Assembly (NCBI RefSeq): GCF_001700965.1
Contig: NZ_CP016756.1
Span: forward strand, 2,780,501-2,844,500
Direction: 5' to 3'
DNA length: 64,000 nucleotides
Source: Stenotrophomonas nitritireducens
GTDB lineage: Bacteria; Pseudomonadota; Gammaproteobacteria; Xanthomonadales; Xanthomonadaceae
The notes below the pieces were generated by a model, which did not search any database, was not told the origin of the DNA, and saw nothing but the letters and a program-made list of their open reading frames with translations. The stretch's first letter is position 1, and every line of letters starts with the position of its first letter. Positions 19,828 through 23,202 of the stretch are shown here, piece by piece. Both the position numbers and the translations under genes were made by a program.

Positions 19828-20757
19828 ATGCAAGCAAGCCCCTGGTTCCTCATCCTCAACGGCAAATCCGCCGGCGACGACGCTGTACGTGAGGCGGTTG
19901 CGCAGCTTCGCGAGCAGGGTCAGGACGTGCGGGTCAGGGTGACCTGGGAAAGCGGTGACGCAGAACGCTACGTACGCGAGGCAATCGCCGCGCAGGCGCC
20001 GCTGCTGATCGCCGGTGGCGGTGACGGCACCCTCAGTGAAGTGGCCGAGGCCATGGCGCATACCGGGCAGGATGCAGCGCAGCTTCCGGCGCTGGCCTTG
20101 TTGCCGCTCGGCACCGCCAACGACTTCGCCACCGCCGCCGGCATTCCCCCCGAGCCGCTGGCCGCTTTGCAGCTGCCAGGCCAGACGCCGGCGCGGCTGA
20201 TCGATCTGCTGCGGGTTGACGGTGATGGCAGGGTGCATTGGTGCGCCAATCTGGCCAGCGGTGGCTTCGGCACCGAAGTAACCGTGGAAACCCATGACGG
20301 ACTGAAGAAGATGCTCGGCGGCCTGGCCTATGTCATTACCGGCATCGCCAAGCTGGGCCGGATCGAGCCGATCCAGGCGCGCATCCACGCGCAGGGTTTC
20401 GACTGGCAAGGCGGTTTCATCGCGCTGGGGGTCGGCAACGGCCGGCAGGCCGGCGGCGGCCAGCAACTGTGCCCCGAAGCGCTGCTCGACGACGGCCGCC
20501 TGGACCTGACCGTGGTGCCGGAGTTGTCCGGCGAGGTGATGTCGACCTTGGGCACCTTGTTCAGCGAAGGCAAGCACGCCGCGCTGGAGCAGGTAGCTGA
20601 ACGGGCGCGGCTGAGCGAGGTCTGGATCGAGGCCGAACAGCCGCTGACACTGAACCTGGACGGCGAACCCCTGCAGGCCCGGCGCTTCCACCTGCAATGC
20701 GTGGCCGGCCGGGTTCGCATGCATCTGCCGGCCGATACGCCCCTGCTGGGCGGGTGA
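19828..20757 (+). CDS. yegS: YegS-like lipid/diacylglycerol kinase
   Basis: A 309-residue member of the diacylglycerol kinase catalytic family, phosphorylating a lipid at the inner membrane surface; YegS itself accepts phosphatidylglycerol in vitro. The nucleotide motif GGGDGT is at residues 63-68, preceded by LNGKSAG and followed by [10 protein letters not shown] and [11 protein letters not shown], all family marks. The C-terminal beta-sandwich ends with [12 protein letters not shown]. Physiological substrate unknown. It stands alone upstream of the trp region. Confidence 0.92.
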
Positions 20758-20830
20758 ATCGTTGCCGCTGCAAGCATCTGCGCATGCTGCGGATGCACAC
20801 CGGGCGGCCATCTTGCGGTAAAGTTGGGCG

Positions 20831-20980
20831 GTGCCCATTTTGACGACCAAGCGTTCCCTTTCTTCCGCTCGCCGCTGGTGGCGATGGTGGCCCGTTGCCG
20901 TCGTCCGTACCGCCATCGTCGAATCCCGGAAGGAAAGCCGTCTTGATCACGCAAGAGCAGTTCCAGCAGCTGGCCGCTGA
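20831..20980 (+). CDS. trpL: Predicted trp leader peptide overlapping trpE
   Basis: A 49-codon frame starting GTG 20831 (alternative TTG 20840) contains Trp-Trp-Arg-Trp-Trp at 20876-20890 (TGG TGG CGA TGG TGG). It runs past the trpE start (20943) in another frame and stops at 20978-20980. Four Trp codons within five, just before a Trp-biosynthesis gene, are the hallmark of an attenuation leader. No U-tract terminator is seen. Instead the leader RNA can sequester the trpE ribosome site (see the regulatory entry). A weak TAAAGT box (20819-20824) would place transcription start near 20831, so the leader might be translated leaderless; that part is speculative. Confidence 0.65.
   Translation: MPILTTKRSLSSARRWWRWWPVAVVRTAIVESRKESRLDHARAVPAAGR
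20858..20937 (+). promoter_or_regulatory. Predicted trpE attenuator RNA structure
   Basis: The outer stem pairs CTTTCTTCCG (20858-20867) with the trpE Shine-Dalgarno CGGAAGGAAAG (20927-20937): ten pairs with one bulged G. The inner stem pairs GGCGATGGTGG (20880-20890, containing Trp codons) with CCGCCATCGTC (20910-20920), with two G-U pairs. A ribosome stalled on the Trp codons would cover or melt both 5' strands and free the Shine-Dalgarno. This suggests translational rather than terminator-based attenuation. Confidence 0.55.
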
Positions 20981-22433
20981 AGGCCACACCGCACACCCGC
21001 ATAATTTCGTACCCGTCGTCCGCGAAGTGCTGTCCGACCTGGACACGCCGCTTTCGGTCTATCTGAAGCTTGCCGACGGCCCGTATACCTATCTGTTTGA
21101 ATCGGTCGAAGGCGGCGAGCGCTTTGGGCGCTATTCCATCATCGGCATGCCGGCGCGCCGCATCTACAGCTTCCGTGGGCATACGCTGGAAGTCAGCGAG
21201 TTGGGTGAAGTGGTCGAGCGCCGTGAAGTGGCCGATCCGTTGGCCGAAGTGGAAGTGCTGCGCAAGCAGTATTCGGTGCCACAGCTCGATGGCCTGCCGG
21301 GCTTTACCGGTGGCCTGGTCGGCTGGTTCGGCTTTGAGTGCATCCAGTACATCGAACCGCACCTGGGTGCGGGCGAAAAGCCCGACGAACTGGGCACGCC
21401 CGACATCCTGTTGATGCTGTCCGAAGAACTGGCGGTGTTCGACAACCTCAAGGGCCGCCTGTACCTGATCGTGCACGCCGACCCGGCGCAGCCGCAGGCC
21501 TGGGCGCGGGCCAACCGCCGCCTGGACGAGCTGGCTCATCGCCTGCGCCAGGGCGGTGCCGGTTACCCGCAGTCGCAGGTATCCGATGCCATCGACGAGC
21601 AGGATTTCCAGTCCTCCTTCACTCGCGAGGAATACCACGCGGTGGTGCGCAAGGCGCAGGAATACGTGCGCGCCGGCGACATCTTCCAGGTGGTGCCGAG
21701 CCAGCGCCTGCGCGTGCCGTTCCGCGCGCGGCCGATCGACGTCTATCGCGCGCTGCGAGCATTGAACCCGTCGCCGTACATGTATTTCATCGATGTCGGC
21801 GGCACCCAGGTGGTCGGCTCCTCGCCGGAAATTCTGGCGCGCCTGCGCGATGGCATCGTCACCGTGCGTCCCATCGCCGGCACCCGCCCACGCGGCGCGA
21901 CGCCGGAGCTGGACAAGGCGTTGGAAGTTGAATTGCTGGCCGATCCCAAGGAACGTGCCGAGCACGTGATGCTGATCGATCTGGGCCGCAACGATGTCGG
22001 CCGCGTCGCCGAGCCGGGTTCGGTCAAGGTCGGCGAGCAGTTCGTGATCGAACGCTACAGCCACGTCATGCATATCGTCAGCGAAGTCACCGGCACCTTG
22101 AAGGCCGGCCTGAGCTATAGCGACGTGATGCGCGCGACCTTCCCGGCCGGCACCGTCAGCGGTGCGCCGAAGATCCGCGCGCTGGAAATCATCCGCGAGC
22201 TGGAGCCGGTCAAGCGCAACGTCTACTCCGGCGCGGTCGGTTACATCGGCTGGAATGGCGATGCCGACACCGCCATCGCGATTCGCACTGCGGTGATCCA
22301 GGACGGTTATCTGTACGTGCAGGCCGGCGGCGGCGTGGTCTACGACTCCGACCCCGATGCCGAATGGCAGGAAACCATGAACAAGGGCCGCGCGTTGTTC
22401 CGTGCGGTGGCGCAGGCGGCGAAGGGTTTGTGA
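20943..22433 (+). CDS. trpE: Anthranilate synthase component I
   Basis: Large subunit converting chorismate plus ammonia or glutamine-derived ammonia to anthranilate, the first committed step to tryptophan. At 496 residues it has the N-terminal feedback region (LFESVEGGERFGRYSIIG) and the chorismate-binding core (PSPYMYFID, GSSPEILARL, RPIAGTRPRG, LIDLGRNDVGRV, FPAGTVSGAPKIRA, QAGGGVVYDSDP). The start is TTG 20943 with GGAAGGAAAG 5 nt upstream; no ATG is suitably placed. Unusually for a Trp operon, it is separated from trpG by one gene, and its start is overlapped by a Trp-rich leader peptide. Confidence 0.97.
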   Translation: MITQEQFQQLAAEGHTAHPHNFVPVVREVLSDLDTPLSVYLKLADGPYTYLFESVEGGERFGRYSIIGMPARRIYSFRGHTLEVSELGEVVERREVADPLAEVEVLRKQYSVPQLDGLPGFTGGLVGWFGFECIQYIEPHLGAGEKPDELGTPDILLMLSEELAVFDNLKGRLYLIVHADPAQPQAWARANRRLDELAHRLRQGGAGYPQSQVSDAIDEQDFQSSFTREEYHAVVRKAQEYVRAGDIFQVVPSQRLRVPFRARPIDVYRALRALNPSPYMYFIDVGGTQVVGSSPEILARLRDGIVTVRPIAGTRPRGATPELDKALEVELLADPKERAEHVMLIDLGRNDVGRVAEPGSVKVGEQFVIERYSHVMHIVSEVTGTLKAGLSYSDVMRATFPAGTVSGAPKIRALEIIRELEPVKRNVYSGAVGYIGWNGDADTAIAIRTAVIQDGYLYVQAGGGVVYDSDPDAEWQETMNKGRALFRAVAQAAKGL

Positions 22434-22434
22434 G

Positions 22435-23202
22435 GTGAACGGTCCGATTGCCAATGGCCTGCGTTCTGCGCTGCTCATGGCAGCGATGGGCTTGGCATCC
22501 GTGGCATCAGCCGAGCAAACCGAGGCACGCGCGAACGATCAACTTGCAGTGATTCGTTCACAGGGCGCGGTTCTCCATTTCGACGGGCGCATAGCGCCTG
22601 AATCGGTTGGCAAGGTGCGTGCGTTCCTGGATGCGGACCATGCGCTGACAGAGCTGGCCATTCGATCCGGCGGCGGCGATGTCGAGGCGGGGATGGCGTT
22701 GGGTCGAATGATCCACGACCGCAGGATGGATGTGCGTGTGGTTGGCGACATCTGCATGTCGTCTTGCGCGAACTACGTGTTCCCGGCAGGTCGGCACAAA
22801 GTCGTGGAAAGTGGAGCATTGGTGATCTGGCACGGTTCCATGCTGCAGAAGAATCTTCGCGAGGGCTTTGATTATTCGGGGATTGAAAAGCAGCTTGGTC
22901 GGCCACTCAACTGGCTGGAACGATGGTCAATGAGGCGTACTGCGAACAGGTGGTTTCGTCGGGTTTCTGTGGAACAGGTTGCGTTCTACGGAAAGATTGG
23001 GGTTGATCCTGCAATAACGGTTCTTGGCCAGGAACAGGGCTGTGCATGCAATTGGACGGTACCGGTTGCGGACATGGCGAAATTTGGAATTGGCTCGGTG
23101 AGTGCGGATACCGACTATGCGGCCCCGGGCTATGCACGCTGGGATGGGGAATGGCAGCTGATTACACGCATCGACGAAGCACCGACGGCTACACGACAAT
23201 GA
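22435..23202 (+). CDS. Periplasmic ClpP/crotonase-fold protein (COG3904-like)
   Basis: A 255-residue protein with a cleavable signal peptide (SALLMAAMGLASVASA). It is followed by a ClpP-like fold: LHFDGRIAPESVGKVRAFL, IRSGGGDVEAGMALGRMI (oxyanion-loop-like glycine motif) and VVGDICMSSCANYVFPAG, with a serine pair at the usual nucleophile position. The C-terminal part is less conserved and has a CAC motif. The start is GTG 22435, 1 bp after the trpE stop. Base composition and codon use are visibly less GC-rich than in trpE or trpG, and the gene splits the trpE-trpG pair, suggesting later insertion. Protease activity is not proven for this family. Confidence 0.75.
   Translation: MNGPIANGLRSALLMAAMGLASVASAEQTEARANDQLAVIRSQGAVLHFDGRIAPESVGKVRAFLDADHALTELAIRSGGGDVEAGMALGRMIHDRRMDVRVVGDICMSSCANYVFPAGRHKVVESGALVIWHGSMLQKNLREGFDYSGIEKQLGRPLNWLERWSMRRTANRWFRRVSVEQVAFYGKIGVDPAITVLGQEQGCACNWTVPVADMAKFGIGSVSADTDYAAPGYARWDGEWQLITRIDEAPTATRQ

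Follow-up and report, generated by a model that had tools for sequence, protein, structure and literature searches.

Trp-codon attenuation is textbook transcription control by a leader peptide, and Trp-codon leaders upstream of trp genes usually act by transcription attenuation. In the E. coli trp leader, the Trp codons lie in the leader and an inner stem forms on them. The leaders of ermC and ermB end before the gene. Canestrari et al. (2020) are said to have described mycobacterial leaderless poly-Cys open reading frames (ORFs), on which a stalled ribosome exposes the ribosome site of the following gene. Comparative papers that reportedly touch on attenuators include those of Panina (2001), Vitreschak (2004), and Merino (2008). 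We found no title or abstract on a trp leader of Xanthomonadaceae in the open-access literature; an earlier prediction is possible, and priority is uncertain.

The leader described here overlaps trpE in a window of 64,000 nucleotides (the whole stretch of DNA that was analyzed). We consider it to be a Trp-responsive translational attenuator, in which stalling at the Trp codons unmasks the trpE ribosome site, with a probability of about 0.8. Like the E. coli trp leader, it has Trp codons and an inner stem on those codons; in contrast to that leader, no terminator was found, the Shine-Dalgarno (SD) region is the target, and there is no Rfam match. Because neither a terminator nor an Rfam match was found, the leader was not classed as an E. 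coli trp-type attenuator, and a transcription attenuator was set aside as the main reading. The accessible part of PMC5343134 calls the E. coli kind 'translational attenuation', a term that does not by itself denote the mechanism proposed here. The rhizobial trpL upstream of trpE(G), as covered by the accessible part of PMC7298713, is also a Trp-codon leader whose RNA starts at its ATG, but it attenuates at the level of transcription, using a terminator and releasing a small RNA. In the drug-inducible ermC and ermB attenuators, a stalled leader ribosome opens a stem hiding the next ribosome site, as proposed here, whereas the signal is a drug and not the lack of an amino acid.

According to the accessible part of PMC9031893, the mycobacterial poly-cysteine attenuators are leaderless short ORFs that contain a run of end-product codons and attenuate the next genes, and the present leader appears to be built likewise. 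It differs in concerning tryptophan and trpE or trpG in Xanthomonadaceae, and in crossing the start of its target and stopping within the coding sequence. There are several codons for the pathway product here as in the poly-Cys type, with Trp codons before trpE and, in genera g16 and g45, also before trpG; in silico, the target SD is paired with leader sequence, as in a translational attenuator. By analogy, among translational attenuators we regard the leader as closest to the leaderless poly-Cys short ORFs, and as a variant of leaderless short-ORF attenuators. The same Trp signal seems to act on trpE translation via a probably leaderless, overlapping leader in Stenotrophomonas, Xanthomonas, Pseudoxanthomonas, and many other Xanthomonadaceae. 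These taxa form a natural series, differing in whether the leader ends before trpE or within it, in copy number (one or two), and in the number of Trp codons (one to four), in which the contributions of stalling, masking, and ribosome flow could be told apart. They apparently also show how a leader can constrain a codon in the gene that it controls.

The leader and its surroundings in the window

The sequence-only reading described a 49-codon frame that contains WWRWW and runs past the TTG start of trpE, and inspection of the sequence confirmed it (Table 1). The frame extends from the GTG to a TGA at 20978–20980, and its translation, read directly, is VPILTTKRSLSSARRWWRWWPVAVVRTAIVESRKESRLDHARAVPAAGR. 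The nearest named TrpE was that of Stenotrophomonas mori (95%). The genes 3' of trpE in the window read as trpG, a LysE-type gene, trpD, and trpC; an ORF at 22402–23202, between trpE and trpG, gave no Pfam match for 22438–23199 at E 0.001. The 12-mer TGGTGGCGNTGG occurs 77 times in the genome, and the Trp-rich string alone is not exceptional; despite this, a chance origin of the Trp run was rejected in view of its conservation.

Table 1. Positions of the leader, trpE, and associated features in the window
Feature	Position	Strand	Remarks
-10-like hexamer TAAAGT	20819..20824	+	6 nt 5' of leader start; predicted transcript start at or adjoining 20831
Leader ORF	20831..20980	+	49 codons, GTG start; 38 nt overlap with trpE, different frame
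Anti-SD segment CTTTCTTCCG	20858..20867	+	Pairs (predicted) with trpE SD; folding, shuffles, swaps
Trp codons TGG TGG CGA TGG TGG (WWRWW)	20876..20890	+	
Inner stem, 3' arm	20898..20912	+	Pairs (predicted) with Trp codons; MFE fold
trpE SD region CGGAAGGAAAG	20927..20937	+	Sequestered (predicted) by 20858–20867
trpE, anthranilate synthase component I	20943..22433	+	TTG start; PF00425, PF04715
trpE codon 12, GCT (Ala)	20976..20978	+	Its T and the next GA form the leader TGA stop

A pattern scan of the leader region of the window gave no full sigma-70 promoter match. Among 113 leaders collected from relatives (see below), a hexamer TA[ACGT]A[GT]T preceded the leader ATG or GTG by 6 nt (91 leaders), 7 nt (20) or 8 nt (2), a -10-like hexamer at 4–9 nt being part of the filter by which these leaders were chosen. 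A spacing of 6–8 nt is, by promoter geometry, the place expected for a transcript that starts at the start codon. No trustworthy SD was seen by eye 5' of the leader starts. Since the -10-like hexamer lies 6–8 nt before the start and no credible SD is present, the leader transcript is probably leaderless.

Direct reading of the window gave ten pairs and one bulged G between the anti-SD segment and the trpE SD region, and the minimum free energy (MFE) fold placed the inner stem on the Trp codons nested within this helix, in agreement with the structure first read from the sequence. The fold energy of 20825–20960 was ordinary (-47.6 vs -45.75 kcal/mol in shuffles; z -0.52; 53/200 as good). Since the stem and the Trp string of the window are ordinary when taken alone, the case rests on the relatives, i.e. 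on conservation and co-variation.

Distribution of the leader and its Trp codons

The comparison comprised 128 trpE-upstream loci, which were the best TrpE matches together with a hand-picked spread of genera and were not a random sample. Loci L001–L013 came from a scan of named genomes and L081–L195 from further genomes, and the more distant L014–L080 were treated apart; L001, L002, L003, L010, and L013 are identical in this region to other loci in the sample. Of the 128 loci, 113 carry a leader that has the GGCGATGG core in frame and an ATG or GTG preceded by a -10-like hexamer. The 15 others include L004 and L190, with short one-Trp leaders that have no accepted -10 hexamer; the remaining non-leader loci are L006–L009, L011, L012, L175, L180, L181, and L191–L194.

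By hand tally, 25 of the 31 examined genera of the family have at least one such leader, the loci of g3, g4, and g11 in this tally having been chosen because they matched the pattern. Within the 25, only a one-Trp form was found in g52 and the trpE leader found in g45 (L179) has one Trp; of the other six, g14 has only the short one-Trp form (L190), and none of the examined loci of g9, g38, g48, g54, and g39 has the leader. A pattern search in 395 genomes of the family gave matches in 247 genomes and 32 of 54 genera, some of them being unrelated coding sequence; in other families of the order, the matches resembled, by eye, unrelated coding sequence. Three Rhodanobacter/Dyella loci (L006, L008, and L018) have no WRWW leader and share TACAATGGC...GGCCATCCGGA shortly 5' of the trpE GTG. 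Many of L026–L080, which are mostly Burkholderiales and other beta, have an RGAWPWR-like or WRWWR-like Trp leader that ends before trpE.

WRWW is kept in 106 of the 113 leaders, 69 of which have WWRWW, and the other seven have reduced forms. The five-codon counts were WWRWW 69, GWRWW 23, AWRWW 11, SWRWW 2, and NWRWW 1, the reduced forms being GWRWR 3, AWRWR 1, WWRWC 1, NRRWR 1, and GRRWR 1. Among 33 representatives (see below), two have a single Trp and 31 at least two Trp codons. The GGCGATGG core is kept in L179, L188, L190, and L004 despite loss of the first Trp.

CGA is invariant at the Arg codon of the 113 leaders by construction, as it is part of the motif used to select them. When TGG-Arg-TGG was sought within 200 nt upstream of trpE in the 128 loci, with CGA not required, the Arg codon was CGA in 111 cases and CGC in one (L007, which has no leader and where TGG-Arg-TGG ends a long upstream frame). 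In nine TrpE genes, CGA accounts for 4 of 375 Arg codons. The CGA between the Trp codons (20882–20884 in the window) may have a role in the inner stem or delay the ribosome.

Predicted masking of the trpE SD region

From 71 distinct leaders we took 33 representatives below 82% alignment score (L156 was dropped as no SD could be placed). They are mutually related, so the p-values overstate independence, and all structure is predicted. Folding of each sequence, shuffles, and swaps were used in place of alignment-based consensus folding.

The results showed that pairing of the trpE SD with the leader before WRWW was on average 0.82, compared with 0.34 for dinucleotide-shuffled and 0.39 for synonymous-shuffled sequences, and exceeded both shuffle means in all 33 representatives. 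The value of the window was reached by none of 60 synonymous shuffles, but by 24 of 60 dinucleotide shuffles, and L170 displayed no real excess (18/60 dinucleotide and 37/60 synonymous shuffles as good). In the MFE folds of all 33, 9–16 pairs formed between the SD region and the pre-Trp leader, and the inner stem covered 7–12 of the 12 WRWW codon bases. Inner-stem pairing was 0.87 vs 0.67 in spacer-shuffled sequences, above the shuffle mean in 33/33, with an average of 7.9/50 shuffles as good. Among the 33 representatives, the SD core is paired in 32, and its partner there lay 12–25 nt (33 nt in one case) upstream of the WRWW motif's first W; 12–25 nt is approximately the trailing half of a ribosome footprint. 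With the Trp codons mostly kept and an SD-masking helix of shifting register predicted in 33/33, the lack of conservation that would have spoken against the translational attenuation read from the window was not observed, and that reading is supported.

When anti-SD and SD segments were swapped between species, the cognate combinations were more stable (-12.70 kcal/mol) than all cross-species swaps (-10.43 kcal/mol; z -5.7, 0/20,000 permutations) and than swaps within groups (-11.18 kcal/mol; z -4.3, 0/20,000), the groups of 11 GTG-type leaders and 22 others being a coarse substitute for a tree. The reversed segment also scored (z -3.0 overall, 38/20,000; z -1.8 within groups, 852/20,000), and composition therefore accounts for part of the swap signal; a spacer segment gave the opposite sign. 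The pairs at SD position 6 were GC 8, CG 9, UA 4, AU 1, UG 1, and unpaired 10 (n = 33); such co-changes at the SD flank are derived from folding, and the swap test is their control. RNAalifold on a MAFFT alignment returned four pairs, all in the inner stem and none in the anti-SD:SD helix, with no double-sided change, which in our view reflects sliding of the anti-SD register along the leader between clades. As to compensatory changes in the stems, cognate segments outperformed swapped ones, and consensus folding gave no such change.

As the sequence-only reading had it, no U-tract terminator precedes trpE, either on reading the sequence or with a terminator scanner, itself a weak tool. The scanner gave no terminator-like site in 20700–21100, also none in L050 and L041, and in L065 a single site upstream of the leader, so its silence is weak evidence. 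There was no Rfam match in the leader region at the gathering score, and up to E 5 only a chance-level match to mir-598 (E 2.2). These results bear on an E. coli trp-like attenuation of transcription, in which a hairpin would end transcription before trpE through an unrecognised terminator or through Rho on uncoupling. Such a mechanism is the usual one for Trp-codon leaders, and some small W-rich ORF lies upstream of trpE in 54 of the 67 loci L014–L080, mostly beta, 53 of these ORFs ending before the trpE start. The trpE(G) leader of S. meliloti is a precedent, as far as the accessible part of PMC7298713 goes. We nevertheless regard this alternative as unlikely, not only for the missing terminator-like site and Rfam match; no U-run follows the hairpin, which ends in the trpE SD and so only a few nucleotides short of the start codon, and a terminator would have no need of a leader frame maintained across the trpE start.

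Overlap with trpE, proposed ribosome movement, and a second copy before trpG

In 110 of 112 leaders, the frame continues across the trpE start; the other two, L003 and L173, have identical sequences and stop before trpE. WRWW and trpE lie 1 mod 3 apart in 111 of the 112 (the exception is 62), with lengths of 58, 61, 64, 73, 76, 79, and 91 in the representatives. Counted over the 33 representatives, the stretch from WRWW to trpE contains a single stop in the leader frame, nine in the frame after it (that of trpE, except in L188), and two in the remaining frame.

A GCT Ala codon makes the leader stop in 28 of the 32 representatives whose stop lies inside trpE, followed in 27 of them by a GA- codon and in one by AAC, which gives TAA (L189). 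The stops made otherwise are ACT-GAG in L158 and other stops in L187 and L176, which have GCC at the usual Ala codon; L188, with the differing frame, has GCC-CAC, and L003, with the early leader end, GCT-TTG. In nine TrpE genes beyond codon 30, GCT accounts for 13 of 422 Ala codons (0–6 per gene, 6 in L010), and in trpE of the window for 1 of 44. Among 20 loci without the leader element, a GCT-made stop step at codon 12 was found in one (L180); L015, L016, L017, L019, and L020, without leader, have a stop step elsewhere in the frame within 16 codons, that of L017 via GCT at codon 11.

The frame keeping and the kept stop codon would imply translation of the leader, and the simplest reading is that leader ribosomes truly cross the trpE start and that their stop is maintained. 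The read-through over the trpE start put forward from the window alone thus gained support from both the frame (open in 110/112) and the selected stop codon. Occlusion of the trpE start by passing leader ribosomes is plausible, and would not be universal, as the L003 leader ends before trpE.

The translational attenuator could work as follows. Transcription would begin at or adjoining the leader GTG, and a ribosome would load on the leaderless 5' end. On a leader without ribosome, 20858–20867 would pair with the trpE SD and the inner stem would hold both, allowing little trpE translation. With scarce charged tRNA-Trp, a ribosome stalled on the first Trp codons would cover the anti-SD and open the inner stem, leaving the SD free. 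With plentiful tryptophan, it would run through the trpE SD and start in a different frame, blocking the start briefly, and stop 12 codons inside trpE; it would leave at about +35, with the start site already cleared and the stem re-forming behind it. The masking and the overlap draw their support from comparison, and from the sequences we infer the leaderless start, the stalling, the Trp response, and the occlusion. At about even odds, the whole may be a family-wide two-way switch with the flow of leader ribosomes as repressor: a stall would uncover and running would cover the trpE start, trpE codons 12–13 (GCT and GA-) would be shaped to end the leader just past the start, and the copy in g16 and g45 would put trpG under the same signal.

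We modeled the ribosome by forcing a 30-nt footprint to be unpaired and computing the openness of the SD. With pairing across the ribosome allowed, openness in the window increased from 0.19 in the free leader to 0.66 when either of the first two Trp codons occupied the A site, whereas the last two gave 0.20 and 0.27; it was 0.42–0.54 over the Trp codons if the RNA behind the ribosome could not pair. Averaged over the 33 representatives, openness was 0.17 for the free leader and about 0.5 with the ribosome 3–10 codons upstream of the WRWW motif's first W, compared with 0.36 on that W and 0.25 on the last one. Exposure of the SD by a Trp-stalled ribosome, as claimed before, occurred in the folding model at the first Trp codons but hardly at the last two, unless trailing pairing was blocked. 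In the same model, ribosomes on earlier codons were equally effective in the window and, averaged over the representatives, more effective. Thus, by this model a stall on the first Trp codons would free the SD, and the Trp codons need not be the sole or best place to do so.

That a modeled ribosome on many pre-Trp codons opens the SD at least as well speaks for a mechanism that senses no Trp, either simple translational coupling or a constitutive mask, where passing ribosomes would open the stem and set a fixed trpE rate. We find this quite improbable, given that 31 of 33 representatives retain at least two Trp codons in this position, that the same element precedes trpG, and that a stop 35 nt inside trpE would appear poor for re-initiation at the trpE start. 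Action of the leader peptide in trans with RNA structure as secondary, for which the accessible part of PMC7298713 claims a precedent in peTrpL of S. meliloti, is highly improbable, since leader residues outside WRWW are variable and the length before WRWW ranges from 10 to 20 codons among the representatives.

Two known regulators were also considered and rejected. The sole Trp_repressor-family match in the genome (L196, G000:C1:4208779-4209030) adjoins a hisG-like gene (hisG by eye), lying directly upstream of it, which speaks against control by TrpR; we take the role of this protein to be HisR/YerC-like, that of a histidine regulator rather than TrpR. There was no TRAP match in the genome.

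In g16 (at a guess, a Lysobacter-like genus) and g45, trpG too is preceded by the element, which there has a -10-like hexamer of its own. Twelve of the listed pattern matches, chosen by eye, were examined and comprised eight second copies (L197–L204) and four trpE leaders (L205–L208); in L198, for example, the leader is on the minus strand upstream of trpG at 950–372. Because of this second copy before trpG, the element is linked, as judged from its sequence context, to tryptophan synthesis independently of trpE. TrpG was recognised from reading frames. In seven of the eight copies, the masked SD starts an ORF of 164–410 nt that terminates in a TGATG whose ATG is that of the TrpG MIDNYD motif, and in L201 the search did not find the MIDNYD motif near the second copy. 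The TGATG junction suggests coupling, and trpG may start a few codons before the MIDNYD ATG. Pairing of the second-copy SD with the pre-Trp segment was 0.65–1.00 vs 0.17–0.58 in shuffled sequences, 0–10 of 60 shuffles being as good.
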